The translations under genes were made by a program, and so were the position numbers. A stretch of 64,000 nt of DNA from Rhodospirillaceae bacterium SYSU D60007. GTDB lineage: Bacteria > Pseudomonadota > Alphaproteobacteria > Reyranellales > Reyranellaceae. A model generated the notes under the pieces. It was not told the DNA's origin. It did no database searches and worked only from the letters and a program-made list of their open reading frames with translations. Position 1 is the first letter of the stretch. Each line of letters opens with the position of its first letter. The stretch covers positions 62,001-126,000 of the forward strand of contig QOCQ01000002.1 of the NCBI GenBank assembly GCA_003574685.1, written 5' to 3'. Shown in pieces: positions 30,436 through 48,692 of this stretch.

Positions 30436-31170
30436 ATGAAAGCCATCCTGCTCAGCGCCGGTCAGGGCTCCCGCCTGGCACCGCTGACGGTTGACCGTCC
30501 GAAGTGCCTGCTGGAGGTCGGACCGAAGACGCTGCTCGACTGGCAGCTCGATACGTTGCGCCTGTGCGGCATCAGCGAGGTCGCGGTCGTGATCGGCTTC
30601 CAGCCCGAGATGATGGAGAAGCACCTGGCGCGCCACGATGGGCCCGGTTTCCGGGTGCGGCCGTTGTTCAACCCTTTCTACAAGGTGGCCGACAATCTCG
30701 GCTCCTGCTGGATGGCGCGCGCCGAGATGGAGCGCGACTTTTTGATCGTCAACGGCGACACGCTGTTCGAGGCGGCGATTCCGCGCAAGGTGCTGGCCAG
30801 CCCGCCCGCACCAATCACCATCACCATCGACCGCAAGCCGGCCTATGACGAGGACGATATGAAGATCGTCGAGGAGGACGGCCGCCTGAAGGCGGTAGGC
30901 AAGAGGCTGCCGCTGGAAACGGTCAACGGCGAATCCATCGGCATGCTGCTGTTCCGCGGCGAGGGGCCGAGGCTGTTCGTTGACACGGTCGAGGCCATGA
31001 TGCGCACGCCGGAAGGCGCAAAGGTCTGGTATCTGCAAGCCATCGACCGGCTGGCGCGCACCGGCGTCGTTCGAACCTGCCTGATCCATGGCCTGCGCTG
31101 GGGTGAGGTCGACTTCCCTCCGGACCTCGACCGCGCCCGCGCCATGGTCGCGGCCTGGCAGCCGGCGTAG
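30436..31170 (+). CDS. NTP transferase, phosphocholine cytidylyltransferase (LicC)-like
   Basis: 244-aa nucleotidyltransferase with the intact signature SAGQGSRLAPLTVDRPKCLL at residues 7-26 (GxGxRL...PK). It also has the metal-binding VNGDTLF near residue 110. LicC-type enzymes make CDP-choline or similar CDP-alcohols; sugar-phosphate nucleotidyltransferase is the alternative. ATG 30436 has AAGGA upstream. It stands at the left edge of the sphingolipid region and may activate a headgroup alcohol for the CDP-alcohol phosphotransferases. Confidence 0.8.
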   Translation: MKAILLSAGQGSRLAPLTVDRPKCLLEVGPKTLLDWQLDTLRLCGISEVAVVIGFQPEMMEKHLARHDGPGFRVRPLFNPFYKVADNLGSCWMARAEMERDFLIVNGDTLFEAAIPRKVLASPPAPITITIDRKPAYDEDDMKIVEEDGRLKAVGKRLPLETVNGESIGMLLFRGEGPRLFVDTVEAMMRTPEGAKVWYLQAIDRLARTGVVRTCLIHGLRWGEVDFPPDLDRARAMVAAWQPA

Positions 31171-31178
31171 GTGCCGGT

Positions 31179-31961
31179 CTACTTCAGGCCGCGCAGGAAG
31201 GCCGCACGGCTGCGGGCCATTTCCATCAGGAAGCTGAAATCGCTGCCGGCGAGGACCATGCGCGCGCCCATGCCGATGTACTTCTCCATCAGCGGCGGCA
31301 CGTAGACGCCGCCCATGCCCGGCCACTTCCCGTGCTTGCGGCAGGCGGCGATCACCGTCTCGTAGGCATTGACCACTTCCGGTTTGTCGAGCTGGCCGGG
31401 CATGCCCATTTCAGTAGTCAGGTCGTTGGTGCCGATCAGCAGCACGTCAATGCCGGGCACGGCGGCGATGGCCTCGGCATTGGCGATTGCCTTGGGCGTT
31501 TCCAGCATCACCACGACCAGCAGCGCCTCGTTGACCGCCCGCGTGGCTTCCGCCGGTGGCACGGCCTGAAAGGCAAGCTGCGGCATGGCGCCGGCCACCG
31601 AGCGGTGGCCAACCGGCGGATAGCGCAGGCGGTCGGCCACGATCTTCGCCTCCTCGGCGGTATCCACATGCGGGATGACAATGCCGATGGCACCACCGTC
31701 CAGCACGCGGGTGGCCATGTCGTATTGGCCGTGGGGCACGCGCACGATGGGTGCGATGCCGGTGGCATTGGCGGCCACGGCGATCTGCACGGCAAGGTCC
31801 AGGTCCATCGAATTGTGTTCGAGGTCGATGAAGAGCCAGTCGAAGCCGGCCGTCTTCATGGCCGGCGCAACATCGACGGTGCGTGCCTGCCGCAGGCCGA
31901 CGCCCAGCGCGACTTCGCCTTTCTTCAGCCGCTCGCGCGCCGGATTGATCAGCTCGACCAT
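31179..31961 (-). CDS. HpcH/HpaI aldolase-family protein
   Basis: 260-aa class II pyruvate-dependent aldolase. It shows GFDWLFIDLEHNSMDL (metal/His region), IVRVPHGQYDMATRVLDGGAIGIVIPHV, LETPKAIANAEAIAAVPGIDVLLIGTNDLT and the C-terminal GSDFSFL. Such enzymes cleave 2-oxo-3-deoxy acids. GGGAGG precedes its ATG. A link to the neighbouring lipid genes is not obvious. Confidence 0.87.
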   Translation of the reverse strand: MVELINPARERLKKGEVALGVGLRQARTVDVAPAMKTAGFDWLFIDLEHNSMDLDLAVQIAVAANATGIAPIVRVPHGQYDMATRVLDGGAIGIVIPHVDTAEEAKIVADRLRYPPVGHRSVAGAMPQLAFQAVPPAEATRAVNEALLVVVMLETPKAIANAEAIAAVPGIDVLLIGTNDLTTEMGMPGQLDKPEVVNAYETVIAACRKHGKWPGMGGVYVPPLMEKYIGMGARMVLAGSDFSFLMEMARSRAAFLRGLK

Positions 31962-32071
31962 CGTTCCCTCCCGTTGTGATCGCTACCCACTAGTCTTCCG
32001 GGCTACAGCGCGCGAGGCAACCGGCATCTCGGTGCCGGCGCACAACCCTGCCCGACGCCGCGGGCATCGGT

Positions 32072-32872
32072 TCAGCGCCGGCTGGCGAGAATGCGCTCGG
32101 CTTGCGCCAGATCCGAAGGCTTGTCCACGTCAATGGCCGCTTCGGGCTGTGGCAGCACCACGGGGACCGCACGCACGCCGGCCATCCGGGACAACTCGGC
32201 GAAGGCTGCGTTGAGATCGAGCCGTCCCGTGGCGTAGCGCAGCAGCGCGCCCATGCCGATGCGCGCGGCAATCTTCCATGGCGTCTTGCGGTAGCCTTCC
32301 ATTTGCACCCAGAACGCCACCGCCTTGACGGCGTGCGGCCCAGCGAAGGCGAACAGGTTGCAGCCGGAGTAGCCTTCACCGCCCAGCCGGATGAAGGTGC
32401 GGACCGACTCGGGATATCTGCCGAGAATGGCCGTGCGCGTCGTCAGCCCGACCGCGACATCAGTTTCCCGCGGCACACAGGCCGTGAAGCTTTCGACGAT
32501 CTCAGGCGTCAGCAGCGCGTGGTCGCTGGTGGTGACCAGCAGCGGAAAGGCATCCGGGAGCGAACAGATCGCAGCCTCCACCGTCAGTGCGGGCGAGGCT
32601 GCGGTGGACACGAGGCTGACGTCACCGCCGTCCACTGCCCGTGCCAGCTCCGGCAGTGTGTCGACAAGCCCGCGACCCTGGGCCGCCAGCGCAATGCGGC
32701 CGACGGAAGGACTCTGGCGCAGGGCATCGAGCACACGCAGCAGCATCGGCCGGCCGGCGACCAGTGCCAGCGCCTTGTGCGCCACGCCGGCCGCCTGCGC
32801 CACCGGATCGGCCGTGCCTCGGCTGCCCGCCAGCACCAGCGCGGTAAAGCGGTCCGCAGTGCCTGCAGTCAC
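32072..32872 (-). CDS. MobA-like NTP transferase, coupled to ceramide synthase
   Basis: 266-aa nucleotidyltransferase fold. It has ALVLAGSRGTADPVAQAAG at the start and HKALALVAGRPMLLRVLDAL as the PK..L equivalent (His-Lys-Ala). LLVTTSDHALLTPEIVESF is the metal-binding stretch. GTG 32872 overlaps the ceramide synthase stop as GTGA, so it is translationally coupled. The glycine-rich loop is unusual compared with LicC. It likely makes an NDP-activated precursor for the sphingolipid headgroup; the substrate is unknown. Confidence 0.75.
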   Translation of the reverse strand: MTAGTADRFTALVLAGSRGTADPVAQAAGVAHKALALVAGRPMLLRVLDALRQSPSVGRIALAAQGRGLVDTLPELARAVDGGDVSLVSTAASPALTVEAAICSLPDAFPLLVTTSDHALLTPEIVESFTACVPRETDVAVGLTTRTAILGRYPESVRTFIRLGGEGYSGCNLFAFAGPHAVKAVAFWVQMEGYRKTPWKIAARIGMGALLRYATGRLDLNAAFAELSRMAGVRAVPVVLPQPEAAIDVDKPSDLAQAERILASRR

Positions 32873-34014
32873 CGCAATCCCTTCTCGTAGATGCGGTGGG
32901 TCTTGTAGCGCCGGCCGCCGACGGTGCGGATGATGTTGTTGGTCGGCTTGTTGTCTTCCAGGATCCAGCCCAGCTCGGCGTTGGTCATGCCCAGCCGCTT
33001 GCCGTTCTCGCGTAGCGCGTCGATCGCCATCATCGCCAGCCCCGCGCCCAGCAGGGGGTGGTTGCGGAACTTGTGGCGCACGCCCATCAGCGGCACGCGG
33101 GCGGTGCGGGGCTTGTCCACCAGCAGCCGCCACGCCAGCTTCGCCCATCCCAGCGGCAGCAGACGGCCGTTGAGCCCGCGCAAGGCCTCGTTGAGATTGG
33201 CCAGCGCCACGATGAAGGCGACGCTCTCGCCGTCAACGTCGACGAAGATCGCGAGATCGCGGATCACCACCGGCTTCAGCGTTTTGGCGGCAACAGCGAT
33301 TTCCGCCTCGGTGAAGGGCACATAGCCCCAGTTGTCCGACCAGGCGTCGTTGAAGATATCGAGCAGCGTGCGCACCTCGGCATCAAAGCGCTTCATGTCC
33401 ACGGTGCGTACCTTCACGCGGCCGGCCAGTCCGCCGCGCTCGATCAGCTTGCGGCCGATGGTGGGTGGCGCGTTCTGCACATCGTAGTCGTAGCACCAGA
33501 CGTCGCGGATCTTCGTGTAACCCTGCGCCTCGACCCGCGGGCCGGCATAGGGCGGATGCCAGGGCACCAGCAGCATCGAACGGCTGTCGAATCCCTCGAC
33601 CTGCAGGCCCACCTCCTCGTTGATCGACAGCGACAGCGGCCCACGCGCACGGGTCATGCCCTTGTCGTGCAGCCAGGATTCGGCGGTGGTGAACAGCCTG
33701 GCATAGATGTCGGCATCGTCTTCGACGTCGAGGCAGCCGAAAAATCCCGTTCCATCCTGATAGCGTTCAAGATGTGCTCGATCGACCTGCGCCGAAATGC
33801 GCCCGACCACCCGATCGCCCGCCCGCGCCAGCCAGAAGCGCGCCTCGGCATGTTGGAAATACGGGTTCTTCTTCGGGTTGAAGGTGTCGCGCCGCTCCAT
33901 GTCGAGATGCGGCACATAACCCGCCTGAGCGCGATACAGCCGCTTGGGCAGATTGATGAAGTCCCGCAGGTCGCGGGCCGTCTCAACCGGCGTGATGCTG
34001 AACGTGCGCAACAC
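32869..34014 (-). CDS. cerS: bacterial ceramide synthase (GNAT-type N-acyltransferase)
   Basis: 381-aa protein of the GNAT-related group that includes Caulobacter bacterial ceramide synthase, which acylates the long-chain base using acyl-CoA. Characteristic stretches are FINLPKRLYRAQAGYVPHL near the N-terminus, YFQHAEARFWLARAGDRVVG, RARGPLSLSINEEVGL and the C-terminal LGWILEDNKPTNNIIRTVGG. Length matches the family. It starts with GTG, lies 38 bp after the hydroxylase gene and is coupled to the NTP transferase. Identification relies on family resemblance plus the Spt, ACP and CerR genes nearby. Confidence 0.8.
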   Translation of the reverse strand: MLRTFSITPVETARDLRDFINLPKRLYRAQAGYVPHLDMERRDTFNPKKNPYFQHAEARFWLARAGDRVVGRISAQVDRAHLERYQDGTGFFGCLDVEDDADIYARLFTTAESWLHDKGMTRARGPLSLSINEEVGLQVEGFDSRSMLLVPWHPPYAGPRVEAQGYTKIRDVWCYDYDVQNAPPTIGRKLIERGGLAGRVKVRTVDMKRFDAEVRTLLDIFNDAWSDNWGYVPFTEAEIAVAAKTLKPVVIRDLAIFVDVDGESVAFIVALANLNEALRGLNGRLLPLGWAKLAWRLLVDKPRTARVPLMGVRHKFRNHPLLGAGLAMMAIDALRENGKRLGMTNAELGWILEDNKPTNNIIRTVGGRRYKTHRIYEKGLR

Positions 34015-34052
34015 GACTCATCCGCACGCCGCGGCGTGCTTGCGGCGGTGCT

Positions 34053-34898
34053 TCACGCGGCCTTGTCGCGCTTGGCGGAATAGCCGAGATCAGCGCCCAC
34101 GGCGTCGGCATTGGCGTGCGGCGTGTGCGGTCGCCAGCGCCGGCCGTCTGCGCCCACCCGGATGCCACCGGCCGACATGGCGGCCACCCACGGATATTTC
34201 TGGGCCATGGCTTCGTCGTAACCGAGATTGAACACCGTGGCGCTCTTGGGCCGTTCGCGGGCAGCATCGAAATCGGTCCCCAACAGGCGGTCGACCACGA
34301 AGTTGGTAATGCCGTAATTGCCGTTCTCGTTGTGAAAGTGATGCAGCAGGTGCAAGCGCTTGATCTCCTGCATCCACTTCCAGCGCGGGCGATAGTTCAG
34401 ATGCTGGGCGCTGTGGCAGAACTCGTAGAAGCACGTGGTCAGCAAGGCGCCCGCCACGCAGGCCGCCGCGCCGGCGGCACCGCCGATCAGCCAGCCCAGC
34501 GGCAGGGTGACCAGCGCAATCGTCGGCAGGGTCGTGTAGAGGGCGCCAAACAGCACGCCGAGATCGTGCGGGTCCTGGTGGTGATCGAAATGCGTGCGCT
34601 TCCAGACCTTGGCCAGCAAGGGCGTGCGGTAACCAAGGCGGCTGTGAAGCACCCAGCGATGCAGGCTGTACCAGACCAGCGGGTAAACGAGGACGGCTGC
34701 CAGGCCCGCGGCGGCAACACGCAGGATTTCCGATACGGTCCATGCCGGCATCCAGGCGATGGCCAGTCCCACGCACACGGCGGCCAGCGCGAAATAGGCC
34801 GCCACCGCGTAATGGGTGAGATAGGCCCGCACCAGGTCGCGCATCGTCATGCGCGCCAGGTTGTATTTGCGGCCGGCCCAGAAGCCGATACGGATCAC
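34053..34898 (-). CDS. fatty acid hydroxylase / sterol desaturase family membrane protein
   Basis: 281-aa integral membrane di-iron oxygenase with about four helices. His clusters in order: HRWVLH, HFDHHQDPHD, HSAQHL and HLLHHFHNENGNYG. This is the complete ligand set of the superfamily. It starts at GTG 34898 with GGAG upstream and leads the operon containing ceramide synthase. Hydroxylation of the sphingoid base or of the amide-linked acyl chain is the natural inference. Confidence 0.85.
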   Translation of the reverse strand: MIRIGFWAGRKYNLARMTMRDLVRAYLTHYAVAAYFALAAVCVGLAIAWMPAWTVSEILRVAAAGLAAVLVYPLVWYSLHRWVLHSRLGYRTPLLAKVWKRTHFDHHQDPHDLGVLFGALYTTLPTIALVTLPLGWLIGGAAGAAACVAGALLTTCFYEFCHSAQHLNYRPRWKWMQEIKRLHLLHHFHNENGNYGITNFVVDRLLGTDFDAARERPKSATVFNLGYDEAMAQKYPWVAAMSAGGIRVGADGRRWRPHTPHANADAVGADLGYSAKRDKAA

Positions 34899-35026: not shown

Positions 35027-36334
35027 TCAGGCCGTTTGAATGCCGCGTGGAGCTTCCTTCCGGGCTAGAATCCACATCGTGCGGACGGCATGCCAGGCGA
35101 CCGTCGCCGCCTGCCAGGCCACGATCAGCCAGAAGGTTTCGGGGCCCAGCCCAAGAAGCACGCCGACCAGGAACAGCGGCAGGAAGATGTTGCGTCGAGC
35201 GATCACGGCCCGCACGGTGGCGTCGATCGGCGCATGGGCATGCAGGCCCCTGCCCTTGTAGCGCCACTTGTAGACCGCCAGCACCAGCCGGTCGGCGACG
35301 TAGAGCAGCACCAGTACGATGGCTGCCGTGAACAGAGGGTTGCCCTGTGCCAGTGCCGGTGGCCACGCGCCGGCGAGGCCGATCGCCCAGCCAGCGTACC
35401 AGAATGGCGGATGCACAATGTCGAGCCCATGGTCGAGCACGTTGCCCAGCGCCGAGGATGTGAAAGTGAGCCGCGCCACCTTGCCGTCCACTGAATCCAG
35501 CACGCTCATCACATAGGCCAGAAGAAAGCCCCATGCCCACCATCCCAGGGCAAAACAGGGGACCGCGGCGAAGGCAGCGACGATGCCGATCCAGGTGATG
35601 GTGTTCGGATGCACGCGCCAGCGCGTTGCCAAACGGGTCAGCGGCCAGACCAGATAAGGATAGACATAGCGCGTGAAGACATCCGTCGAGCCCTTGTAGC
35701 TGGCATCGAACAGGAAGCGCTCTGTGGCGGCGCGCGCATGCGCATCGCTCACACGGCGGACCCAGAACGGAACATCGCGGCGCTGTAGTGCAACGTGAGA
35801 CTCGAAGCCTTCGGCCGTGAGCTTCCGTGCCGAACCGTCAGCCAACAGGGTGGCGCCCAGCGCATGCACGTCCGCTGCAGCGGGTATCGCAGTGCCGGGA
35901 GCCAGCAACACGGCCCTGTCAGCGGCGCTGCCTTTTTCCGTCCAATCGCCGAACACCGCCGACCAAGCGGCAGCAAGGGCGCGCGGCACGCGGGTATCGC
36001 CGCTCACGACCAGCGTTTGATGCTGCGGCGCCAGATGTACGAACAGCCGCGGATCGACCACACTGTCGCCGGAAACGGCGAAGACGGTATCGCCGAGCTC
36101 CGCCGCGCAGGCCTTGAGCCTTTCGGCAGCCGTACCGCTGCCGCTGACGATACGCAGGCCGGCAGCAGCGAGATCGGGCGGCAGGGAGAGTATGGACCCG
36201 CTGCCGTAGTCGGCGATGATGCGTGCCGCCGGCACGCCGGCCTTGAGTGCTGCCCGGATATGACGCTCTACAGGCGTCATGCCGAACACAGTCAGTTCCG
36301 GCACGTCAGCGGCAGCATCGATCCAGACATGCAT
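35027..36334 (-). CDS. CDP-alcohol phosphatidyltransferase with degenerate nucleotidyltransferase-like N-domain
   Basis: 435 aa. The C-terminal half is a polytopic CDP-alcohol phosphotransferase with the full motif D280-x2-DG-x2-AR-x8-G297-x3-D301-x3-D305. The first 200 residues look like an NTP-transferase fold (FGMTPVERHIRAALKAGVP, AVSGDSVVDPRLF) but lack the GxGxR loop. The layout recalls the fused inositol-phosphate cytidylyltransferase/DIPP synthase of hyperthermophiles. It begins 22 bp after lptG. It probably forms a phosphodiester-linked headgroup on a lipid; the alcohol is unknown. Confidence 0.85.
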   Translation of the reverse strand: MHVWIDAAADVPELTVFGMTPVERHIRAALKAGVPAARIIADYGSGSILSLPPDLAAAGLRIVSGSGTAAERLKACAAELGDTVFAVSGDSVVDPRLFVHLAPQHQTLVVSGDTRVPRALAAAWSAVFGDWTEKGSAADRAVLLAPGTAIPAAADVHALGATLLADGSARKLTAEGFESHVALQRRDVPFWVRRVSDAHARAATERFLFDASYKGSTDVFTRYVYPYLVWPLTRLATRWRVHPNTITWIGIVAAFAAVPCFALGWWAWGFLLAYVMSVLDSVDGKVARLTFTSSALGNVLDHGLDIVHPPFWYAGWAIGLAGAWPPALAQGNPLFTAAIVLVLLYVADRLVLAVYKWRYKGRGLHAHAPIDATVRAVIARRNIFLPLFLVGVLLGLGPETFWLIVAWQAATVAWHAVRTMWILARKEAPRGIQTA

Positions 36335-36356: not shown

Positions 36357-37430
36357 CTACACGCCCTCGATCCGCAGCAGGATGCTGCCGGCGACGCTGG
36401 CAAAAACAACGGGCGGCGCCCAGGCGGCGATCAGCGGCACGATCGCGCCGGACTCGCCCAGCGCCTGGGCCACGCCGTCGGTGATGAAGAACAGAAAGCC
36501 CAGCGCCACGCCGGCCGCCAGCCTCGCGCCCAGGCTCGACATGCGCACGCGCGCCTGCGCCACGGGCGCCGCCAGCAACAGCATGACGAATATGACGGCC
36601 GGAGACGCAATTCGCCGCTGCAGCCACGTGTCGTAGGTATAGCTGGGGCGTGTACCCACCGCGACGCCGGTGCGCAACTGAAGCAGCTCGCGCGCCGTGA
36701 ACTGGTTAGCGGTGGCGGCCAGATTGAAAAAATCCGCCGGCCGAAGCGGCGACCGCCAGGTCCACTCGGGCACATGCACCGTGCGTGGCCCCAGCGGGTC
36801 GATCGTCTGCATCACGACCTGGTCAAGCTTCCATTGCCCCTGGCGGTACTGCGCGCTTCTGGCGTGAATGCGCTCGACCACGTTCGCCGAGCTGTCGCGG
36901 CGCAGCAGGGTGACGTTGCCGAGGGAGCGCCCTTCGCGCTGCACGTTGGCGACATTGACGATATACGCCGGATCGCGCAGCCACACGCCCCTCGCCTGAT
37001 TGCGCTGGTCGTCGCCCGGCCTTTCCAGCTCATGGCGCGCCAGCCGCTTCTTGGCCCAGGGCGTGACCTGGTCGGCGATCGCCAGATGCGCCAGGGCCAC
37101 CAGCGCGGTCGCCGGCATCATCAGCAGCAGCATGCGGTAGAACGACATGCCGGCTGCCTTGAACGCCAGCACCTCGTTCTGCTGCGCAAGGCCCAGCAGC
37201 GTCAGCAGCGCTGCCAGCAGCGTCGCGAACGGGATGACGAGGGCCGTGATCTCGGGCAGGCGAAAGAGCATATAGCGGGGAATGACGAGGATGCCCTCGC
37301 CATAGCGCTTCTCGATGGCGTCGGCATTGTTGAGAACGTCGAACAGCAGCGCCATCAGCGCGAAGCCGAAGACGATCAGCGCCAGCCGTTGCAGGAAGAT
37401 TCGGGAGAGGTAGCGGCCGGAGACGCCCAT
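36357..37430 (-). CDS. lptG: LptG/YjgQ-family permease
   Basis: 357-aa permease of the YjgP/YjgQ family, three N-terminal and three C-terminal helices around a periplasmic beta-jellyroll. It starts GRYLSRIFLQRLALIVFGF and carries [20 protein letters not shown], the coupling-helix region LLGLAQQNEVLAFKAAGMS, and the C-terminal RMSSLGARLAAGVALGFLFF. It follows lptF by nine bases. LptFG normally extracts lipopolysaccharide from the inner membrane. Here the pair sits inside a sphingolipid locus, so a sphingolipid substrate should be considered. Confidence 0.88.
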   Translation of the reverse strand: MGVSGRYLSRIFLQRLALIVFGFALMALLFDVLNNADAIEKRYGEGILVIPRYMLFRLPEITALVIPFATLLAALLTLLGLAQQNEVLAFKAAGMSFYRMLLLMMPATALVALAHLAIADQVTPWAKKRLARHELERPGDDQRNQARGVWLRDPAYIVNVANVQREGRSLGNVTLLRRDSSANVVERIHARSAQYRQGQWKLDQVVMQTIDPLGPRTVHVPEWTWRSPLRPADFFNLAATANQFTARELLQLRTGVAVGTRPSYTYDTWLQRRIASPAVIFVMLLLAAPVAQARVRMSSLGARLAAGVALGFLFFITDGVAQALGESGAIVPLIAAWAPPVVFASVAGSILLRIEGV

Positions 37431-39675: not shown

Positions 39676-39835
39676 AGACCACTCCGAAACTGCCTTGCCC
39701 TTCCGGGGAGCACATAAACCACTCTGCCACGCCCCGCGCCTGGGGGCGAGGTGGGTTGCGGGGGCGAGAGTTCTTGCCTAAACCTCCGGCCAAGGCCGCA
39801 CCCACGACGGCTGACGCAGCCCCCGACCCGCGACC

Positions 39836-41020: not shown

Positions 41021-41024
41021 CGCG

Positions 41025-42011
41025 ATGACCGCGCCCGGCGCCGCAAGAGCCGCACTGGTCGCCCTGCTGGCGCGCGAGGCCAATCGGACCGTGGCGGCGC
41101 CCGCCCGCGCCATGAGCGACGCCATCGTGGCGCGTCACAAGAACTGCCTGATTGCGACGCTCTTCTACGGCTCCTGCCTGCGCCCGGCCGGCGACACTCC
41201 GGACTCGGTAGGCCCAGGAGCCGCGGGCGAGCAGCTCATGGATTTCTACGCCGTGGTGGACAATCTGCGGCGAGCCAATGGCGGCGCGCTGGCGGCGGCC
41301 GGCAACCGCCTGCTGCCGCCCAACGTCTTCTACCTCGAGGTGCCCTACGACGGCACCCGCCTGCGCTGCAAATATGCCGTGGTGACGCTGGCGCAGCTCG
41401 GCCGCCTCGTGCGCGCCGACACGCTGCAGAACTACTTCTGGGGCCGCTTCTGCCAGCCGACAGCCGTGCCCTTTGCCCGCGGCGCCGGTACGCGCGACAA
41501 GCTGGCCGAATTGCTGGCCGATGCTGTAACGGCGATGGTCGCCGCGACGGCACCCCTGTTCGAGGCGCCCTTCACGGCACGCGACTTGTGGGTGCGCGCC
41601 CTTGCCGAAAGCTACGGTGCGGAACTGCGTCCCGAATCGGCACAGCGCCCGGCGCAGGTCCACGACGCCAATGCCGCGCGCTATGCCGCGCTGACGGGGC
41701 CGGCCCTCGCAGCAGCCAACTTCACCAATGTCGCCGACTCCGACGGCCGTTTCGTGCCCGTGGCCGGGCCGCGGGCACGGCGGCGGGCAAGGCGCGCCTG
41801 GATGATGCGCCGGGTGCTCGGCAAGACGTTCAACGTGCTGCGCCTGCTGAAGGCGGTTTTCACCTTCGAAGGCGGGGCCGACTATGTTGCCTGGAAGATC
41901 CAGCGCCACTCCGGCGTGCGCCTCGACCTCAGCGACTGGCAGCGTCGTCACCCACTGCTTGCCTCCCCCATCCTCGCGCTGCGCTACTGGCGCAAAGGCG
42001 CCTTCCGGTAG
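41025..42011 (+). CDS. TAM41-like phosphatidate cytidylyltransferase (CDP-DAG synthase)
   Basis: 328-aa protein resembling mitochondrial Tam41/Mmp37, a nucleotidyltransferase-fold enzyme making CDP-diacylglycerol from phosphatidic acid and CTP. Correspondences: ATLFYGSCL (44-52) to Tam41 YGSGVF; LMDFYAVVD (71-79) to MIDFIFAVD with the metal-binding Asp; VFYLEVPYDG (101-110); LRCKYAVVTLAQL (113-125) to IKYGVIST; and YFWGRFCQP (137-145) to YVAGRLHKP. The C-terminus (about 220-328) also looks like the family. It has no membrane helices, unlike CdsA. Adjacency to a CDP-alcohol phosphatidyltransferase supports a lipid-activating role. Whether it uses phosphatidate or ceramide-phosphate is open. 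Confidence 0.72.
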   Translation: MTAPGAARAALVALLAREANRTVAAPARAMSDAIVARHKNCLIATLFYGSCLRPAGDTPDSVGPGAAGEQLMDFYAVVDNLRRANGGALAAAGNRLLPPNVFYLEVPYDGTRLRCKYAVVTLAQLGRLVRADTLQNYFWGRFCQPTAVPFARGAGTRDKLAELLADAVTAMVAATAPLFEAPFTARDLWVRALAESYGAELRPESAQRPAQVHDANAARYAALTGPALAAANFTNVADSDGRFVPVAGPRARRRARRAWMMRRVLGKTFNVLRLLKAVFTFEGGADYVAWKIQRHSGVRLDLSDWQRRHPLLASPILALRYWRKGAFR

Positions 42012-42174
42012 AGATGTGCGCCCGGCGCGCGCAGGCATGCTCGCCCGCATCGCTCATTCGTCTGGCCAGTATGTCGCGAGACCAAATGTGGCTAAGCCTT
42101 GTGCCCCAGCCTATTCGTTTGTCACGCGGCTGTCCGCCCCATAGCGTGCCGGCACAAGACAAGGGAGAGCGACG
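42012..42174. other. intergenic gap between TAM41-like and GST-like genes
   Basis: No gene-like frame. The right end carries GGGAGA six bases before GTG 42175. I see no clear terminator or promoter. Confidence 0.4.
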
Positions 42175-42804: not shown

Positions 42805-44025
42805 TCAGCCAGCGATGGCGCGTTTGCGGGCGGTCTCGAGCACGCCGAAGCGTTGAGCGACCTCGCTCAGCGTCTCGACAACGTGCTGCAACTGACCGCG
42901 GGAATGCGCAGCCGAGAGCGAGCAGCGCAGCAGGCACAGCCCGCCCGGGGTTGCCGGCGGCACCGCGACGTTGACGTAGATGCCGGCCTCCAGCAGCGCG
43001 TGCCAGATCGCAATCGTTGTGGTCTGGTCCGGCATCAGGACGGCGACCACCGGTCCGTGCTCGGGCCCCAGGCGGAAGCCGGCTGCGGCCAGTCCGTCAT
43101 AGAGTGTCGCGACATTCTCCCACAGCCGGGCACGCAGTGCGGCACCATCGCGGCGCACGACTTTCAGCGCGGCGCGGACGGAAGCCACCACCGCCGGCGG
43201 CAACGAAGCCGTGAACATGTAGGCCCGCGTGGCGACGCGCAGCGCCTCAAAGCCGTCATGGCTGGAGACACAGAAGCCGCCGACGGCGCCCAGGGTCTTC
43301 GAGAAGGTGCCGACCACGAAGTCCACCTGCTCCAGAACGCCTGCCTCCTCGACAAGGCCGCGGCCGTGTTCGCCCAGTGCGCCCAGCGAATGCGCCTCAT
43401 CGACGAGGATGTAGCCGCCATAGCGCTTGGTAATGTCCACAAACGCCTTCAGCGGGGCGGTGTCGCCCAGCATCGAATAGATGCCTTCGACCACCACCAG
43501 CTTGTTGCCCGGCTGGTCCTTCAGGCGGCGCAAGCGCGCCTCAAGGCTGGCGGGATCGTTGTGCTTGAAGCGGATGATGGTGGCCTGGGTCTGCTTGCAG
43601 GCGTCGTAGATCGAGGCATGGCTGTCGGCATCGATGACGAGGTAGTCACCTTCGCCCACCAGCGTCGAGATGATGCCGAGATTGGCCTGGTAACCGGTGG
43701 TGGTCACCATGCAGTGCTTCATACCGTAGAAATCGGCGAGCTCCCTTTCCAGCGCCGCATGCTGGGCGTACGTCCCGTTCAGCATGCGCGAGCCGGTGGT
43801 GCCGGTACCCTCGGCGCGTGTCGCCTCGACGGCAGCCTCGATGCACTCCTGGTCAAAGGTCAGCCCAAAATAGTTGTTGGTGCCGACCAGCAGGGTCTTG
43901 CGCCCGTTGATGATGGCCTCAGTGGGTGAAAGCACCCGCTCCATCGTGACCAGCGGATCAATGCCGGTCGCCCGCATCGCCTGGTAGGAATCCAGCAGCG
44001 GGCGGTAGCGGTCAAAAATTCCCAT
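42805..44025 (-). CDS. spt: serine palmitoyltransferase
   Basis: 406-aa PLP enzyme of the alpha-oxoamine synthase family, condensing serine with a fatty acyl thioester to 3-oxosphinganine, the first step of sphingolipid synthesis. PLP lysine is Lys243 in GTFSKTLGAVGG, with DEAHS at 209-213 and GTGTTGSRMLNGTY at 73-86. It could be mistaken for KBL or BioF. The gene for a dedicated acyl carrier protein lies two bases upstream and CerR beyond it, as in Caulobacter and Sphingomonas, so Spt is the best call. No membrane anchor: soluble like other bacterial Spt. Confidence 0.9.
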   Translation of the reverse strand: MGIFDRYRPLLDSYQAMRATGIDPLVTMERVLSPTEAIINGRKTLLVGTNNYFGLTFDQECIEAAVEATRAEGTGTTGSRMLNGTYAQHAALERELADFYGMKHCMVTTTGYQANLGIISTLVGEGDYLVIDADSHASIYDACKQTQATIIRFKHNDPASLEARLRRLKDQPGNKLVVVEGIYSMLGDTAPLKAFVDITKRYGGYILVDEAHSLGALGEHGRGLVEEAGVLEQVDFVVGTFSKTLGAVGGFCVSSHDGFEALRVATRAYMFTASLPPAVVASVRAALKVVRRDGAALRARLWENVATLYDGLAAAGFRLGPEHGPVVAVLMPDQTTTIAIWHALLEAGIYVNVAVPPATPGGLCLLRCSLSAAHSRGQLQHVVETLSEVAQRFGVLETARKRAIAG

Positions 44026-44027
44026 GG

Positions 44028-44339
44028 TCAGCGGCCCCCGACCTTGCGCAGCACCGCTTCGGCCAGCTCGTCCACGGTGTGGATCTCGGCCACGTCGTTG
44101 AGCGGGATCGAGATGTCGAAGCGATCCTCCAGCTCCATGACCATGTCCATGACAGCAAGCGAGTCGATGTTCAGGTCCTTGGTGATGACGGTCGCACCCG
44201 TAATCGGCCGCGCGTCCACCCGGAAGGGCTCCAGACGCTGCACGATCTCGGCGACCACCTGTTCACGCGGTGGCAAATCGGTGTCGCTCGTGACCGGATC
44301 GGTGAAGTCGTAAACCTTGAATTTGTGTGCGCTGCGCAT
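44028..44339 (-). CDS. acyl carrier protein of the sphingolipid locus
   Basis: 103-aa ACP with the phosphopantetheine serine in LNIDSLAVMD (Ser60). It has an N-terminal extension of about 25 residues relative to housekeeping AcpP (about 78 aa). ATG 44339 is preferred; a TTG 13 codons upstream is possible. In Caulobacter an ACP beside spt is required for ceramide formation and presumably presents the acyl chain to Spt. Confidence 0.88.
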   Translation of the reverse strand: MRSAHKFKVYDFTDPVTSDTDLPPREQVVAEIVQRLEPFRVDARPITGATVITKDLNIDSLAVMDMVMELEDRFDISIPLNDVAEIHTVDELAEAVLRKVGGR

Positions 44340-44399
44340 GACTCGGATTCCGCCGGAGGGGTTGGCCGCATTGGACAAAACCCCGGCAGATCAAGCCAT

Positions 44400-44412
44400 T
44401 AACAATTTGTTA
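44400..44412. promoter_or_regulatory. AT-rich 13-bp dyad between cerR and the ACP gene
   Basis: TAACAA-T-TTGTTA is a perfect dyad in an AT-rich island that stands out in this GC-rich sequence. It lies in the only long gap (90 bp) of the cerR-ACP-spt run. It could be an operator for an internal promoter or a short hairpin. Confidence 0.35.
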
Positions 44413-44429
44413 CGCTGTATTACGTCGGA

Positions 44430-45356
44430 CTACAGCCAATGGTGGCGGCGGTACCAGGCGATGGTGTCGGCAAAGCCGCCCACCAGGTCGAAACCGGGGC
44501 GGAATCCCAGGAACTCGGCAAGACGACGATCGGTGACGGTCCAGTCGTGGTGGAAGATTTCGCGCACCTTGCCCGGGCTAAGGATCGCCGGCCGGCCGCG
44601 CACCCGGGCCAGGATCTGCTGCATGGCCGCCACACCGCTCATGAGTGGCCGCGGCACGCCGATGACGCGGGTGCGGCGGCCAAGGATCGCGGCCGCCGCC
44701 TCCACCATTTCGACAAGGCTGTAGCCATCCGCCGCACCATCGTCGATTTCATAGACGCCGCTGGCCGGCGGACGCACCAAGGCGGCGGCCAGCACCGCAC
44801 AGAGATCGGCGACATGGATCAGCGACACGCGGCCGGGCCGGCCGGCGGGAACAGCCGCCAAACCCAGTTTCACGGTGCGGAAGAAAGGCAGCGTCTCCCG
44901 ATCCCCAGGGCCATAGACAGCGGGCGCACGGATCGCCACCCAGCGGCCGGACGGCGCAGCGGCGGCAAGCGCGTCCTCGCCGGCGCGCTTGCTGGCCGCA
45001 TAATCGGAGAGCTGCGGCTCGCGCGCCGCCAGTGAGGACAACAGGATGACCCGCGCCTGGCCGCCGGCAGCATCCAGCAAATCCTGCACGGCCCGTGCAT
45101 TATATCGGAAGAAATCACGGCGTTGCCGGGCCTTGATAGCGCCGGCGAGATGGATGACCGCGTCGGCGCCCTGCACGAGGCGGCGCAGGGCGGCCTTGTC
45201 CGCCAGTTCGCCGGGCACCAGCTCGAAACTGCCCGCCGGCAGCACTGGCAGGCGGCGGACCAGCAGGCGCTGGGGGATACCTTCGCGAGCCAGGGTCGCA
45301 ATCAGGTGCTGGCCGATGAAGCCGGTGGCGCCGGTGACGGCCACGACCCCGTTCAT
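44430..45356 (-). CDS. cerR: NAD-dependent epimerase/reductase, CerR-like
   Basis: 308-aa extended SDR with TGATGFIGQ (8-16) and the catalytic DYAASK (Tyr119, Lys123). In Caulobacter a gene of this family next to spt reduces the 3-oxo group of the sphingoid base or ceramide. The C-terminal part (DLVGGFADTIAWYRRHHWL) resembles nucleoside-sugar epimerases, so automatic annotation would not reveal its role. It overlaps the acyl-AMP ligase stop by 4 bp. Confidence 0.82.
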   Translation of the reverse strand: MNGVVAVTGATGFIGQHLIATLAREGIPQRLLVRRLPVLPAGSFELVPGELADKAALRRLVQGADAVIHLAGAIKARQRRDFFRYNARAVQDLLDAAGGQARVILLSSLAAREPQLSDYAASKRAGEDALAAAAPSGRWVAIRAPAVYGPGDRETLPFFRTVKLGLAAVPAGRPGRVSLIHVADLCAVLAAALVRPPASGVYEIDDGAADGYSLVEMVEAAAAILGRRTRVIGVPRPLMSGVAAMQQILARVRGRPAILSPGKVREIFHHDWTVTDRRLAEFLGFRPGFDLVGGFADTIAWYRRHHWL

Positions 45357-47113
45357 GGCCGGGCAGCCGCCTCCACTGCCACGACGTCGGGGCGCTGGCC
45401 GCCATCCTTGTAGACACCGGCCAGCCAGTTGGTTCGTGCGCGCGAGCGGCTGAGCTTGCCCGAGGACGTGAGTGGCAGTCCGACCGAAGGGCGGATGAGC
45501 TGCACGGTGCCATCCACGCCCACCGTCTCCTTGACCATTTGCGCGATGGCTGCGCGCAGCGCCTCGCGTTCGGCCGCGTCAGCGGGCCAGGCCTGCACGA
45601 CGACCACGATACGTTCCGCACCGTCATCGTCCTGCAGCGAGAAGGCGCATGCATCGCCGCGGCGCAGCGGCGTAATGGTCTCGACCGCCCATTCGATGTC
45701 CTGCGGCCAGATGTTTCTTCCGTTGACGATGATGAGGTCCTTGGCCCGGCCGGTCACCACGATCTCGCCGTCCCGCCAGTAGCCAAGATCGCCGGTATCG
45801 AGCCAACCGTCCTTCAGCACGGCGGCGCTGGCTTCCGGTTCACCGAAGTAGCCCGGCATCATGCTGGGCCCGCGCGCGAAGATACGCCCCACGCGGCGCT
45901 CGCCGACAGGTTTGCCGGCATCGTCGCGAATCTCTACGGAATGGCCCGGCAAGGGCTTGCCACAAACCACAAACTCGCGGGCATTCGTACCGCTTGCCGG
46001 CGCCGCCACATGACGGTCGGTCAACTGGCCGCGATCGACGATATCGAGCGCAAAGCCCGTATTGATCGTCGAAAAGGACAGGGCAACGCACATCTCGGCC
46101 ATGCCGTAGCAGGGCAGAAAAGCGCGGGCATCGAATCCAGCCGGCGCAAAAGTGTCGATGAAGCGTCTCAGCACCGGTGCCTGGATCATGTCGCCGCCGA
46201 TGCCGGCCGCGCGCAGGCTCGACAGATCCAGACCCTCCAGCGATTGCCTCTGGGCCCGACGTGCGGCGAGATCGTAGCCGAAGCTCGGACTATAGGTGAT
46301 GGTGGCGCGCTGCCGCGCAGCGAGGGCCAGCCATTGCAGCGGCCGTCGCGCGAAATCGGCAGGCGACATGACGTCGATGGAGCGCTGGCTGCACACCGCC
46401 GCCAGCAGTATCCCGACCAACCCCATATCGTGGTACCACGGCAGCCAGCTCACGGCGCGATCATCGGCGCGCAAGTCGATGCCGCGCTCCGAAAACGAGG
46501 CGTCGATGTTGGCCATCAGTTGATCCTGACGGATATCGACGCCCAGCGGAAAGCGCGTGCTGCCGGAAGAGAACTGCAGGTAGCAGCGTTCCCCCGGCCC
46601 CAGCGGCCGCAGGTCGGCGGCTTTCTCCGGCAAGGCCTCGAATGCGGCCATGGCGCCGACCAGACGTACTGACGTCCCCTCGGCGGCGGTTGCGACGTAG
46701 CCGGCAAGCGAATCGGTGGCCAGCGCAACCACAGCCCCCGAAGCCGCGAGCTGGCGGCGAAGCTGCGCTATATAGGCTTCGCGCGCGCCCAGGCCGGCGG
46801 GCAGCGAAACCGGCACCGGCAGCAATCCCGCGTATTGCGCCCCGAAAAACGCCGTCACAAATCCCGGCCAGGTGTCGGCGGTGATCAGCAGCCTGTCGCC
46901 GACGGAAAACCCCCCGCCGATCAGCCGGCGTGCGAATACATGAGCCTGCTCGCGCGCGTCGCGCCAGGACAAGGCTGCGGTCAGCCTTCCGCGGGAATCG
47001 TGGAAATTAACGCCAGCCTCGCCACGTGCAGCGTAGTCCAGCGCCTCCGCAAGGCAGCGAAACCCGCCGCGCCGAAACGGCAAATCGGCATTTCGCGTCG
47101 GCGTTGGTGTCAT
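45353..47113 (-). CDS. fatty acyl-AMP ligase (sphingolipid acyl-activating enzyme)
   Basis: 586-aa adenylate-forming enzyme. Motifs: YLQFSSGSTRFPLGV (P-loop), WLPWYHDMGLVGILLA (typical FAAL/FACL), LPCYGMAEMCVAL, DGWLDTGDLGYWRDGEIVVTGR and the C-terminal LTSSGKLSRSRARTNWLAG with the catalytic Lys. It probably loads a fatty acid onto the locus ACP. An acyl-ACP synthetase of this kind is among the genes needed for ceramide in Caulobacter. It is first in the minus-strand ligase-cerR-ACP-spt unit. Confidence 0.87.
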   Translation of the reverse strand: MTPTPTRNADLPFRRGGFRCLAEALDYAARGEAGVNFHDSRGRLTAALSWRDAREQAHVFARRLIGGGFSVGDRLLITADTWPGFVTAFFGAQYAGLLPVPVSLPAGLGAREAYIAQLRRQLAASGAVVALATDSLAGYVATAAEGTSVRLVGAMAAFEALPEKAADLRPLGPGERCYLQFSSGSTRFPLGVDIRQDQLMANIDASFSERGIDLRADDRAVSWLPWYHDMGLVGILLAAVCSQRSIDVMSPADFARRPLQWLALAARQRATITYSPSFGYDLAARRAQRQSLEGLDLSSLRAAGIGGDMIQAPVLRRFIDTFAPAGFDARAFLPCYGMAEMCVALSFSTINTGFALDIVDRGQLTDRHVAAPASGTNAREFVVCGKPLPGHSVEIRDDAGKPVGERRVGRIFARGPSMMPGYFGEPEASAAVLKDGWLDTGDLGYWRDGEIVVTGRAKDLIIVNGRNIWPQDIEWAVETITPLRRGDACAFSLQDDDGAERIVVVVQAWPADAAEREALRAAIAQMVKETVGVDGTVQLIRPSVGLPLTSSGKLSRSRARTNWLAGVYKDGGQRPDVVAVEAAARP

Positions 47114-47240
47114 CGGATGCAGGGAGAATATGGTGGGGGGCGGCGGTCCTCTACCAAAAGGCGTCCCCTCTCACAAGCCAGGCCGGGGCAAGGCCGCCGC
47201 CGTTGACACGGCCGGCGGTGTATGATGAGCCGTTCCCGCA

Positions 47241-48692
47241 ATGTCTTCCCCTGCACCCTCCATGCAGCCACAGCCGCCGGCCGCGCGCCGTCGCTGGCTG
47301 GCGCGTGTATGGGCGTGGCGCCGTGACGCCACGCTGGGCAGGCTGTACGTCAACGCTGGCAAGCTGTTCACCGGCCAGGCATCCGGCGCCCTGCTGGGTC
47401 TCGCGGCAATCTGGTTCACGACGGCCAGCCTGGGCCTGACGCTGTTTGGAGTCCTGGTTGCCATCCAGAGCTTTACGAAGCTGGTCGGCAACACGCTCAA
47501 GTTTTCCACCTGGGAGGCGATCGTCAAGTATGGCGCCGACGATCTGTCGCGCGATGACCGTGACGCTTTCCGCCGTCTGGTGGCGTTCAACACGTTGCTC
47601 GATATCGGCACCGCTTTCGCGGCCTTCGCCGTCTGCCTGGGCATCGCCTGGCTTGTGCTTCCCCTGATCAACGTGTCGCGGGAGCATTTCTGGTTCGCCG
47701 CCTTCATGTGCCTCGGCGCTTTCTTCACGGTCAGTGCGACGCCGGTAGGTGTGCTGCGGCTGTTCGACCGCTTCGGCCTGCTCGCGCTGGCCGAGCCGGT
47801 CGGTCCGCTGGTGCGGCTCTGCCTCTGTGCGCTCTTTTACTACACCGGCTCGCACGATCTCTGGGTGTTCGGCGCAGCGTTCCTTGCATCATCCGCGCTG
47901 GATCGCGCCATTACAGTGTGTCTGGGCTGGCGCGAACTTCGACGACGTGGTCTGGCACCTCGATGGCGGGACCTGCGATCACCCACGAGCAGTGGCCATC
48001 CCGGTCTGTGGAAGTTCGTGCTGGCGAACAATGCGCGTACCTCGCTGGGCGTGCTCACCAAGGAATCGGATGACTTGATCGTAGCGGCCTTCGCCGGCCC
48101 CACGGGCGTGGCATTGTGGAAGATCGCCAAGCGGGTGTCCTCCGCGCTGTCGGTGCCTGCAAGACTGTTCGTCTTTGCGGTGTTCCCCCAGCTGGCGCGG
48201 CTGTGGAGTACGCGCGACTATCGTGCGTTCCGCCGACTGGTGGTGCGGAGCAGCATCACGTCGACAGCCGGCGCGGTGGCGATCGTCGTTCTGTTCGCTG
48301 TCTTCGGGCCTTTCCTGTTGCAGCTCTTCTTTTTCAAGGCAACGCAGCAAGGTTTCGTGGCAGCGTTCGAGCCCGGATTGCTGCTGCTCAGCTCCCGCGT
48401 CGTCACCATGCTGATGTCGCCCTTCCTGCCGGCGCTGACGGCGATGGGCCACGTCGTGCGCAATCTGAAGCTGGCCCTCGTCCTGGCGGCCGTCACTGTG
48501 CCGACAATGCTGCTGATGACATGGCAGTTCGGTCTGACGGGCGCCGGCATTTCGCGCATCCTTGCCGAGGTGCTGACCGCTTCGGTGTTCGGCTGGACCG
48601 TCATGCACGCGATCAACAATCGCATCCGCAAATCGGCCATGGCGCCGCCGGGGCCGCCCGCCAGCTCCGCGCCCGCACCGGCCGGAGTCTAG
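47241..48692 (+). CDS. oligosaccharide/lipid flippase (MATE/MOP superfamily)
   Basis: 483-aa polytopic protein with 12-14 predicted helices, beginning GRLYVNAGKLFTGQASGALLGLA. It contains DRFGLLALAEPVGPLVRLCL and NARTSLGVLTKESDDLIVAAF, typical of Wzx-type flippases. It is divergent from the acyl-AMP ligase gene across a 127-bp gap and may move the finished sphingolipid or a lipid-linked glycan across the inner membrane. Its stop overlaps the convergent gene's stop. Confidence 0.8.
   Translation: MSSPAPSMQPQPPAARRRWLARVWAWRRDATLGRLYVNAGKLFTGQASGALLGLAAIWFTTASLGLTLFGVLVAIQSFTKLVGNTLKFSTWEAIVKYGADDLSRDDRDAFRRLVAFNTLLDIGTAFAAFAVCLGIAWLVLPLINVSREHFWFAAFMCLGAFFTVSATPVGVLRLFDRFGLLALAEPVGPLVRLCLCALFYYTGSHDLWVFGAAFLASSALDRAITVCLGWRELRRRGLAPRWRDLRSPTSSGHPGLWKFVLANNARTSLGVLTKESDDLIVAAFAGPTGVALWKIAKRVSSALSVPARLFVFAVFPQLARLWSTRDYRAFRRLVVRSSITSTAGAVAIVVLFAVFGPFLLQLFFFKATQQGFVAAFEPGLLLLSSRVVTMLMSPFLPALTAMGHVVRNLKLALVLAAVTVPTMLLMTWQFGLTGAGISRILAEVLTASVFGWTVMHAINNRIRKSAMAPPGPPASSAPAPAGV

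Follow-up and report, generated by a model that had tools for sequence, protein, structure and literature searches.

A putative ceramide phosphoglycerate synthesis and export locus in a Reyranellaceae bacterium without an LpxC match

Positions 30436 to 48692 of the window, by which we mean the whole analysed stretch of 64,000 nucleotides, carry a ceramide core (Spt, ACP, CerR, AasR, CerS and a hydroxylase) together with headgroup and export genes. In gene content and order, this locus matches the cluster of Caulobacter crescentus for ceramide mono- and diphosphoglycerate (CPG and CPG2; CC_1152–CC_1168, including CpgA–D and LptF2/G2; PMC11324152), a counterpart that was not named in the preceding sequence-only reading. 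We consider it likely that the locus serves to make an anionic phosphosphingolipid of the CPG family and to deliver this lipid to the outer membrane in a host that appears to be free of lipopolysaccharide. Every gene type named in the sequence-only reading is present, as indicated by family or model matches, by position for CerS and by the predicted structure for the Tam41-like enzyme (Table 1). The interpretation of the additional genes as a headgroup and export module is also supported and has a precedent in Caulobacter, where the headgroup part was established by experiment and export was only proposed (PMC11324152).

Results

Table 1. Genes between positions 30436 and 48692 of the window, with the evidence for their assignment.
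Feature	Coordinates	Strand	Evidence or remark
CpgD-like CTP:phosphoglycerate cytidylyltransferase, CC_1152 position	30436..31170	+	PF00483 46 bits; contact residues
HpcH/HpaI aldolase	31179-31961		not a conserved part of the locus
MobA-like nucleotidyltransferase, CC_1153 position	32072..32872	-	PF12804 39.5 bits
CerS, GNAT-type ceramide synthase, CC_1154 position	32869..34014	-	position and identity
Fatty acid hydroxylase	34053..34898	-	PF04116 72 bits
CDPOH_1, second CDP-alcohol phosphotransferase with N-terminal nucleotidyltransferase-like domain	35027..36334	-	PF01066 33 bits
LptG2 permease	36357..37430	-	TIGR04408 256 bits, cut-off 240; tree
LptF2 permease	37440..38714	-	TIGR04407 242 bits, cut-off 230; tree
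Calcineurin-like phosphoesterase	38761..39675	-	PF00149 46 bits
CpgA-like CDP-alcohol phosphotransferase, CC_1159 position	39836..41020	+	PF01066 38 bits; active-site motif
CpgC, Tam41-fold enzyme (predicted), CC_1161 position	41025..42011	+	predicted structure; co-occurrence with CpgB
GST	42175-42780		not a conserved part of the locus
Spt, serine palmitoyltransferase	42805..44025	-	NF047599 631 bits, cut-off 500
AcpR, dedicated acyl carrier protein	44028..44378	-	PF00550 40 bits; 2 bp from spt
CerR reductase	44430..45356	-	PF01370 79 bits; conserved neighbour
AasR, acyl-AMP ligase / acyl-ACP synthetase	45353..47113	-	NF006624 731 bits, cut-off 600
Wzx-like flippase, CC_1166-like	47241..48692	+	NF041503 weak, E=6e-4, 18.9 bits of cut-off 300

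A better match of Spt to KBL or BioF would, by the sequence-only reading, have marked the genes as chance neighbours, and the serine palmitoyltransferase model NF047599 fitted far better than BioF (321 bits) or the glycine C-acetyltransferase models (at most 303 bits). The best PDB match was a serine palmitoyltransferase as well, with 453 bits compared to 216 for KBL. Spt remained below the cut-offs of the other two SPT models, the alphaproteobacterial one among them, with 498 bits against 670 and 345 against 640. CerS (381 aa) gave no Pfam match at E ≤ 5 and is named by its gene position and by 41–83% identity to genes in like places of other loci; it had no match in the stretches of three g5 relatives (L018–L020). 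The GTG start of the MobA-like nucleotidyltransferase gene overlaps the stop codon of CerS, and many of the 80 named loci likewise have the two genes side by side. Among solved structures, SCS7, the ceramide fatty-acid hydroxylase of yeast, comes closest to the hydroxylase (E=8e-6). The phosphoesterase is also found in most small ceramide-only clusters of Reyranella-type genomes, and the flippase has counterparts with 66–67% identity in two loci of the same genus. More distant counterparts, which align along most of the protein with 26–34% identity, lie near AasR in loci of Caulobacteraceae, Azospirillum and others.

Minus-strand ORFs at 39377-40624 and 40845-42050 were rejected as genes because they had no family match and because the codon-position G+C pattern places the true genes on the plus strand. 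A role of the HpcH/HpaI aldolase as dedicated supplier of glycerate found no support, the gene having no match in 20 loci (E ≤ 1e-5) or 80 loci (E ≤ 1e-4), many of which end short of the place of this gene. Scans for promoters (2, shuffled mean 1.9) and terminators (13, shuffled 10.1, sd 2.9) gave little above shuffled sequence.

The locus shares with the Caulobacter cluster the five ceramide genes (aasR, cerR, acpR, spt, cerS), CpgC, CpgA, CpgD, the CC_1153-like nucleotidyltransferase, LptF2/LptG2, the phosphoesterase and the flippase; gene order was compared through Caulobacter sp. AP07 (L081) and other named loci, not through the C. crescentus sequence. CpgC and CpgA lie beside spt. In contrast to the Caulobacter cluster, the hydroxylase is located inside the locus, the flippase is on the opposite strand, cpgB is found elsewhere beside a recG-like gene, CDPOH_1 is present in addition (the AP07 locus has no separate copy), and the host has neither an LpxC match nor another LptFG pair. 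The set of genes beyond the core pathway that had been recognized earlier exists, but it is mostly the known CPG2 set, with one CDP-alcohol phosphotransferase exceeding the Caulobacter complement. The idea of a single locus holds for nearly all genes but not for the ceramide kinase CpgB, and LptF2 and LptG2 are the only parts of an Lpt machine recognized in the locus. In Dongia mobilis (L062) and the loci L057, L058, L079 and L088, CDPOH_1 is situated as it is here, with LptG on one side and the hydroxylase or CerS on the other, whereas these clusters still have cpgB between cpgC and cpgA. For S. wittichii, of the LPS-free sphingolipid bacteria in the Sphingomonadales, 16 of the 17 genes of Caulobacter were reported to have orthologs (PMC11324152). 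There the genes are spread over 6 regions, whereas those of the locus, which belongs to another order of the class and has CDPOH_1 added, are nearly all together.

The kinase gene cpgB, expected from Caulobacter, is absent from positions 30436-48692. A full-length CpgB is encoded elsewhere in the same genome, unlinked to the locus (G000:C23:261891-262829, 239 bits), beside recG/mfd-like genes, a setting shared by all 5 further Reyranellales genomes that were inspected. Among 387 genomes of the class, CpgB and CpgC are confined to one and the same set of 45, and 44 of these also contain Spt; these and the other genome counts are raw and include shared descent. The two genes are adjacent in 40 of the 45 genomes. 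Of the 44 genomes with both CpgC and spt, 28 have them no more than 1 kb apart, and 31 have them on one contig at a distance of up to 20 kb.

CpgC from the window matched no Pfam family at E ≤ 1, and a profile search against PDB sequences did not retrieve Tam41. Its AF2 model (pLDDT 90.5), however, is predicted to have the fold of the CDP-diacylglycerol synthase Tam41 (7ecd, 6ig2, 6ig4), with Z 18.6 over 231 aligned residues (rmsd 3.2, 13% identity) for the bacterial enzyme with CTP-Mg, compared to Z 8.9 for the next unrelated family. Foldseek gave TM-scores of 0.47–0.50 of the query, which together with the missing sequence-level match to Tam41 in Pfam and the PDB profile search leaves the substrate uncertain. 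Given the missing Pfam match, we class CpgC as an enzyme that presumably works like Tam41, not as a member of that family. Based on the predicted fold, we propose that it is a CTP:ceramide-1-phosphate cytidylyltransferase that would convert ceramide-1-phosphate and CTP to CDP-ceramide.

In the CpgD-like protein, G9, R13, K23, N87 and S90 align to G12, R16, K26, N90 and T93 of the published CpgD. Beyond position 93, the numbering drifts by 1–2 residues, and N106, D108, M142, K156, S167 and W198 were matched by motif to N110, D112, M147, K161, S170 and W201. The residues contacting CTP and glycerate are thus kept, with serine in place of T93 and alanine in place of T88, which makes a backbone contact. 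A sequence search of the PDB gave 33 matches, none of them a CpgD structure from a 2026 preprint.

Both the CpgA-like protein and CDPOH_1 contain the complete motif DxxDGxxAR(x7-8)GxxxDxxxD, which we take to be the signature of CDP-alcohol phosphotransferases. CpgA was found in 29 of 62 genomes searched, a sample from which genomes without Spt and CpgC were left out, and CpgB/CpgC are present in all 29. Among 45 genomes with CpgC, CDPOH_1 occurred exclusively alongside CpgA (8 of 24 genomes with CpgA, 0 of 21 without), and 21 of the 45 genomes with CpgB/CpgC had neither protein at E ≤ 1e-25. In one family (f33), all 5 genomes have two copies of CDPOH_1. Its AF2 model (pLDDT 89.3) had the IPCT-DIPPS of Archaeoglobus fulgidus (4mnd) as best structural match by E-value, tied near Z 24 with AF2299 (4o6m). 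These proteins combine a nucleotidyltransferase-like domain with a CDP-alcohol phosphotransferase in the same layout as CDPOH_1, for which, in contrast to them, a membrane lipid acceptor is expected. The N-terminal half gave no Pfam nucleotidyltransferase match.

A role of CDPOH_1 as substitute for the kinase, forming CPG from ceramide and CDP-glycerate, was rejected because CpgB is present elsewhere in the genome and because loci with CDPOH_1, such as L057, L058 and that of Dongia mobilis (L062), hold cpgB. Its presence in only 8 of 45 CpgC genomes likewise eliminates a function as general CDP-ceramide:glycerate transferase. As a second CDP-alcohol phosphotransferase, which among the 62 genomes searched accompanies CpgA only, CDPOH_1 suggests that the headgroup is longer or of another kind.

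LptF and LptG both exceed their equivalog cut-offs, and they are the sole LptF/LptG pair of the genome. LpxC had no match in this genome, which is 99.8% complete, or in any of the 16 Reyranellales genomes searched; a control search of 14 named genomes returned LpxC in 4, including Caulobacter vibrioides and E. coli. Judged by LpxC alone among the lpx genes, the organism appears to make no lipopolysaccharide. Nine of the 16 genomes have CpgC, and 8 of these also hold the LptF/LptG pair, which is absent from all 7 genomes without CpgC. G025, a genome that is 81% complete, contains CpgB/CpgC without an LptFG match. In trees of LptF and LptG, 11 rows on the LPS side, which are pairs of LpxC-bearing genomes located away from spt, split from the rest, and the window pair falls with the rest, on the spt-linked side. 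The split received support of 99/97 (LptF) and 100/100 (LptG) with G323_SL, for which the tree program issued a long-branch warning, and 100/100 in both trees rebuilt without it, in which G106_LPS was still flagged.

Discussion

The reactions in this organism, including CDP-ceramide formation and the role of CDPOH_1, we infer from genomes, using the orthology, gene order, co-occurrence, predicted folds, missing LpxC match and single Lpt permease pair computed here; experiments in Caulobacter, and only there, demonstrated the kinase, the activity of CpgD and which genes are needed. AasR would load a fatty acid onto AcpR, and Spt would condense it with serine. CerS and CerR would complete dihydroceramide, which the hydroxylase may then oxidize. 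CpgB, encoded outside the locus, would phosphorylate the ceramide, and CpgC would use CTP to turn the resulting ceramide-1-phosphate into an activated form, CDP-ceramide, en route to CPG. CpgD would provide CDP-glycerate, CpgA would attach a second phosphoglycerate, and CDPOH_1 may extend or vary the headgroup. Finally, LptF2/LptG2 with other Lpt parts would pull the lipid out of the inner membrane. Since Caulobacter forms CPG without CpgA (PMC11324152), there is no known enzyme for joining CDP-ceramide and glycerate.

As its only full-fold matches are CDP-diacylglycerol synthases of the Tam41 family, CpgC might be a second enzyme of this kind that supports the sphingolipid pathway only indirectly. 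We regard this as unlikely, because CpgC shares its genomes with the ceramide kinase and, with one exception, with Spt, and because the Caulobacter mutant lacks both CPG and CPG2 (PMC11324152). The headgroup chemistry leaves somewhat more room for doubt. Inositol-phosphate enzymes (IPCT-DIPPS and PIP synthases) are among the closest solved relatives of CDPOH_1, and its NCBIfam matches are inositol-phosphate synthases, all below cut-off, so that CDPOH_1 might transfer another alcohol phosphate such as inositol or glycerol phosphate, and the lipid might be mixed or not a phosphoglycerate at all. The presence of CpgA and of a CpgD with glycerate-contacting residues, and the strict association of CDPOH_1 with CpgA, make this the less probable reading.

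Both permease proteins pass the ordinary LptF/LptG models for LPS, and it is conceivable that they carry another envelope lipid, or residual LPS made without a recognizable LpxC, with the neighbourhood of spt reflecting history only. The missing LpxC match makes the pair an unlikely LPS exporter, and the tree position and the co-occurrence with CpgC in Reyranellales further reduce this alternative to a low probability. Together with the status of the pair as the only one in the genome, they point to the sphingolipid as the most likely cargo that the Lpt permease carries to the cell surface in this lineage; the lipid transported by LptF2/LptG2 would be anionic. A chance assembly of a ceramide core and unrelated phospholipid genes, a concern raised in the sequence-only reading, could at best invoke the non-conserved aldolase and GST within the stretch. 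It is practically dismissed by the recurrence of the same neighbours in many families, and the linkage of CpgC to spt in relatives already refutes it.

Beyond the published cluster, the CPG-family reading advanced here adds the predicted Tam41 fold of CpgC with the proposed CDP-ceramide, a second CDP-alcohol phosphotransferase and an LptFG pair that is the only one in a genome without an LpxC match. The step from ceramide-1-phosphate to CPG was called 'yet unidentified' (PMC12275187), and the predicted fold gives it a concrete candidate reaction via CDP-ceramide. For LPS-free Sphingomonadales, a sphingolipid takes the place of LPS, as we likewise propose for the present host. More tentatively, Reyranellaceae of this kind may have no LPS and may reserve LptF2/LptG2, a second Lpt permease of ancient origin, for an anionic sphingolipid only. 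Their outer leaflet may consist of a ceramide poly-phosphoglycerate made via a Tam41-like CDP-ceramide route, with two CDP-alcohol phosphotransferases extending it beyond two phosphoglycerate units. The route of bacterial sphingolipids to the outer membrane was stated to be unknown, and LptF2/G2/C2 were proposed without being tested (PMC11324152). In bacteria that make LPS, tests of sphingolipid export are blurred by the LPS machinery. As the genome lacks an LpxC match and its one Lpt permease pair resides in the sphingolipid cluster, this lineage would offer a natural clean system in which to study the export.

Organization of the locus

The locus at 30436-48692 is real and corresponds mostly to the known system for synthesis of ceramide diphosphoglycerate (CPG2), present here in another family. 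It encodes about 15 linked genes and two genes that are not conserved parts of it, the aldolase and the glutathione-S-transferase-like gene (Table). The gaps between the AasR, CerR, AcpR and Spt genes are -4, 51 and 2 bp. Spt scored 631 bits against the SPT model NF047599 (cut-off 500), far exceeding BioF/KBL, and had SPT as its best PDB match; the cut-offs of two other SPT models were not reached.

Table. Features in and around the sphingolipid locus (window coordinates)
Feature	Position	Strand	Remark
Sigma factor	25212-25832		PhyR-type sigma2 domain match
Decarboxylase, MFS	27457-30284		flank
CpgD-like nucleotidyltransferase	30436-31170	plus	locus end
HpcH/HpaI-type aldolase	31179-31961		PF03328, 118 bits; between two nucleotidyltransferase genes
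CDPOH_1	35027-36334	minus	second CDP-alcohol phosphotransferase; between the LptG and hydroxylase genes
Phosphoesterase, LptF, LptG, hydroxylase, CerS, MobA-like nucleotidyltransferase		minus
CpgA-like CDP-alcohol phosphotransferase	39836-41020	plus
CpgC	41025-42011	plus
Glutathione-S-transferase-like	42175-42780		between cpgC and spt
AasR, CerR, AcpR, Spt	from 47113 downward	minus	in this order, nearly contiguous
Wzx-like flippase	47241-48692	plus	locus end
ELM1-like	48689-49828		PF06258; overlaps flippase gene end
ArgD-ArgF	49819-52060		flank

For Caulobacter, PMC11324152 assigns ceramide synthesis to CC_1162 (spt), CC_1163-1165 and CC_1154, names CC_1159 (CpgA), CC_1153 and CC_1152 (CpgD, CDP-glycerate synthesis) as required for CPG2, and puts forward LptF2/LptG2 (among CC_1168, CC_1156 and CC_1155) as exporters, as a proposal only. 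In the available sections of PMC11324152 and PMC12275187, CC_1160 (CpgB) is the ceramide kinase and CC_1161 (CpgC) is required for ceramide monophosphoglycerate (CPG) by a mechanism left open. The locus of Caulobacter sp. AP07 has the order spt, TAM41-like (CpgC), GGDG kinase, CDP-alcohol phosphotransferase, phosphoesterase, LptF, LptG, CerS and MobA-like. The window lacks the kinase gene between CpgC and CpgA and contains CDPOH_1 and the hydroxylase in addition, whereas its gene order is otherwise identical. Among the literature matches listed, no report of a CPG2 system in Reyranellaceae was found.

The host genome comprises 5.34 Mb and is 99.8% complete. Its Spt shares 67-70% identity with the nearest named records, from Reyranella and Enhydrobacter, and up to 76% with MAGs. 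Most Reyranella-type loci also have their cluster between these two flanks, so that it appears to have expanded or contracted at a fixed site. A small CerS-phosphoesterase-Spt-ACP-CerR-AasR cluster was present in most of the genomes G005, G008, G010, G014 and G022 (Reyranella-type), G004 and G006, none of which gave a match for LpxC, LptF/LptG, CpgC or full-length CpgB. G022 has a second spt (67% identity, locus L027), distant from the main cluster.

No counterpart of the aldolase was detected in the loci of relatives used for comparison; many of these loci stop short of its position. The glutathione-S-transferase-like gene is present in two same-genus loci (L014, L015) and absent from L016. 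In g5 relatives, the ELM1-like gene adjoins AasR, with no flippase match at that place. Relatives carry a HIT-like gene between phosphoesterase and LptF (L016:10309-10755, L069:15439-15921, L140:11694-12140) that is absent in the window; the L016 copy matches PF01230 with 21.2 bits, slightly below the cut-off. The sigma factor at 25212-25832 recalls the alphaproteobacterial general stress response.

Enzymes of headgroup synthesis

In a sample of 387 genomes of the class, CpgC and CpgB were each detected in 45 (E<=1e-20 and E<=1e-25, respectively), and these were the identical 45, belonging to many families, with counts uncorrected for shared descent. Spt (E<=1e-110) was found in 44 of them, the exception being G306, and occurred without CpgB and CpgC in 12 of the 387 genomes. 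CpgB lies no more than 200 bp from CpgC in 40 of the 45 (exceptions: the host genome G000, G049, G131, G195 and G216). The distance of CpgC from spt is at most 1 kb in 28/44; allowing up to 20 kb on a single contig raises this to 31/44.

The kinase of the Caulobacter sp. AP07 locus was taken as CpgB on the basis of its position, GGDG motif, DAGK_cat match and a C-terminal end resembling the one to be expected from a published primer (PMC10331486); its start did not agree with the second primer of that study. In the host genome, a full-length match to a profile of 16 CpgB proteins (239 bits) is located on contig C23 at 261891-262829 (L135:7850-8842). It adjoins genes that we take to be recG and mfd, apart from the other cpg genes, and the same arrangement with recG-/mfd-like genes was seen in all five other Reyranellales genomes examined. 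Across 41 relatives, full-length CpgB (at least 200 bits) and CpgC occurred in the same nine; the remaining profile matches did not exceed 50 bits and were interpreted as lipid kinases of other kinds.

The AlphaFold2 model of CpgC, built from an alignment of 34 proteins, reached a mean pLDDT of 90.5. Each of its top five Foldseek matches was a Tam41 structure, with TM-scores of 0.47-0.50 of the query and E-values between 1.4e-7 and 1.0e-5. VIA-align gave Z 18.6 over 231 residues with bacterial Tam41 bound to CTP-Mg, 15.7 and 15.2 with mitochondrial Tam41, and 8.9 with the next family; sequence-profile searches with CpgC yielded no Tam41 match. Tam41 converts phosphatidic acid to CDP-diacylglycerol. 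Considering the predicted fold and the ceramide kinase in all 45 genomes, formation of CDP-ceramide from ceramide-1-phosphate would be the simplest parallel for the reaction of CpgC. The term CDP-ceramide occurs in none of the 5.39 million non-subscription papers searched. Eight of them mention Tam41, ceramide and bacteria together, none with a title that points to this question, and the accessible literature naming CCNA_01219 leaves its reaction open.

The window CpgD keeps the published CTP- and glycerate-contacting residues (PMC13228409): Gly12, Arg16, Lys26, Asn90 and Thr93, aligned by number, correspond to G9, R13, K23, N87 and S90, and Thr88, a backbone contact, to A85. Past position 93, the numbering of the stand-in L085 is off by one or two residues, and the later contacts were assigned by motif, with Asn110, Asp112, Met147, Lys161, Ser170 and Trp201 read as N106, D108, M142, K156, S167 and W198. 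Both the serine and the tryptophan contact are altered in L018-L020, the loci of the g5 relatives, whose CpgD may therefore differ.

CDPOH_1 carries a complete CDP-alcohol phosphotransferase motif, and its model (pLDDT 89.3) was closest to AF2299 (Z 23.9) and IPCT-DIPPS (Z 23.6), which are tied. CDPOH_1 and CpgA were separated by CDPOH_1-profile score (at least 428 bits vs at most 235) in 62 genomes having Spt or CpgC, made up of the 45 CpgC genomes, the 12 Spt-only genomes and five relatives with CpgC. CpgA was found in 24 of the 45 and CDPOH_1 in eight, all of which also have CpgA; both were absent from all 12 Spt-only genomes. Such a nested distribution points to CDPOH_1 working beside CpgA or following it, on a headgroup that is longer or varied. 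In each of five genomes of family f33 (G056, G165, G245, G312, G373), CDPOH_1 is present twice, with about 21 kb between the copies, which brings the CDP-alcohol phosphotransferases around a single spt cluster to three.

The Lpt permease in genomes without an LpxC match

LpxC and LptF/LptG were searched in 35 hand-chosen genomes, comprising 19 others and 16 of 26 Reyranellales, the other ten being Reyranella-type (g3). LpxC was detected in 11 of the 35 and in none of the 16 Reyranellales; a control search was positive in 4 of 14 named genomes, including Caulobacter vibrioides and E. coli. Above the cut-off, LptF/LptG matches numbered two in each genome with LpxC and without Spt (5/5) and four in each with both (6/6). 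The 24 genomes without LpxC, all with Spt, had two matches in 15 cases, three in one (G232) and none in eight, indicating that lack of LpxC with one Lpt pair is a pattern also seen in other families (f14, f33, f35 and f81). Among the 16 Reyranellales, the pair was present in 8/9 genomes with CpgC, the exception being G025 (81% complete), and in 0/7 without. Both matches of the host genome lie within the locus.

In trees of 32 LptF and 32 LptG rows, the 11 rows that we defined as LPS-side (pairs of LpxC genomes away from spt and cpgC) were united at 99/97 and 100/100, respectively, with the window outside. The 20 rows remaining besides G323_SL, a long branch of uncertain position, were united at only 80/98 for LptF. 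Without G323_SL (31 rows each), the 11 LPS-side rows and the 20 others were split at 100/100 in both trees, in which a program warning remains for the long branch G106_LPS. Apart from the window, these 20 are 15 pairs adjacent to spt or cpgC and four not seen near either (G002, G013, G232, G300).

New points are the nested second transferase CDPOH_1, the Tam41 fold of CpgC in the predicted structure and, as the strongest, an Lpt permease that is linked to spt and is the only one in a genome where LpxC gave no match. With this last point, the most parsimonious interpretation would be that Lpt exports sphingolipid, and the lineage offers a place to test it.
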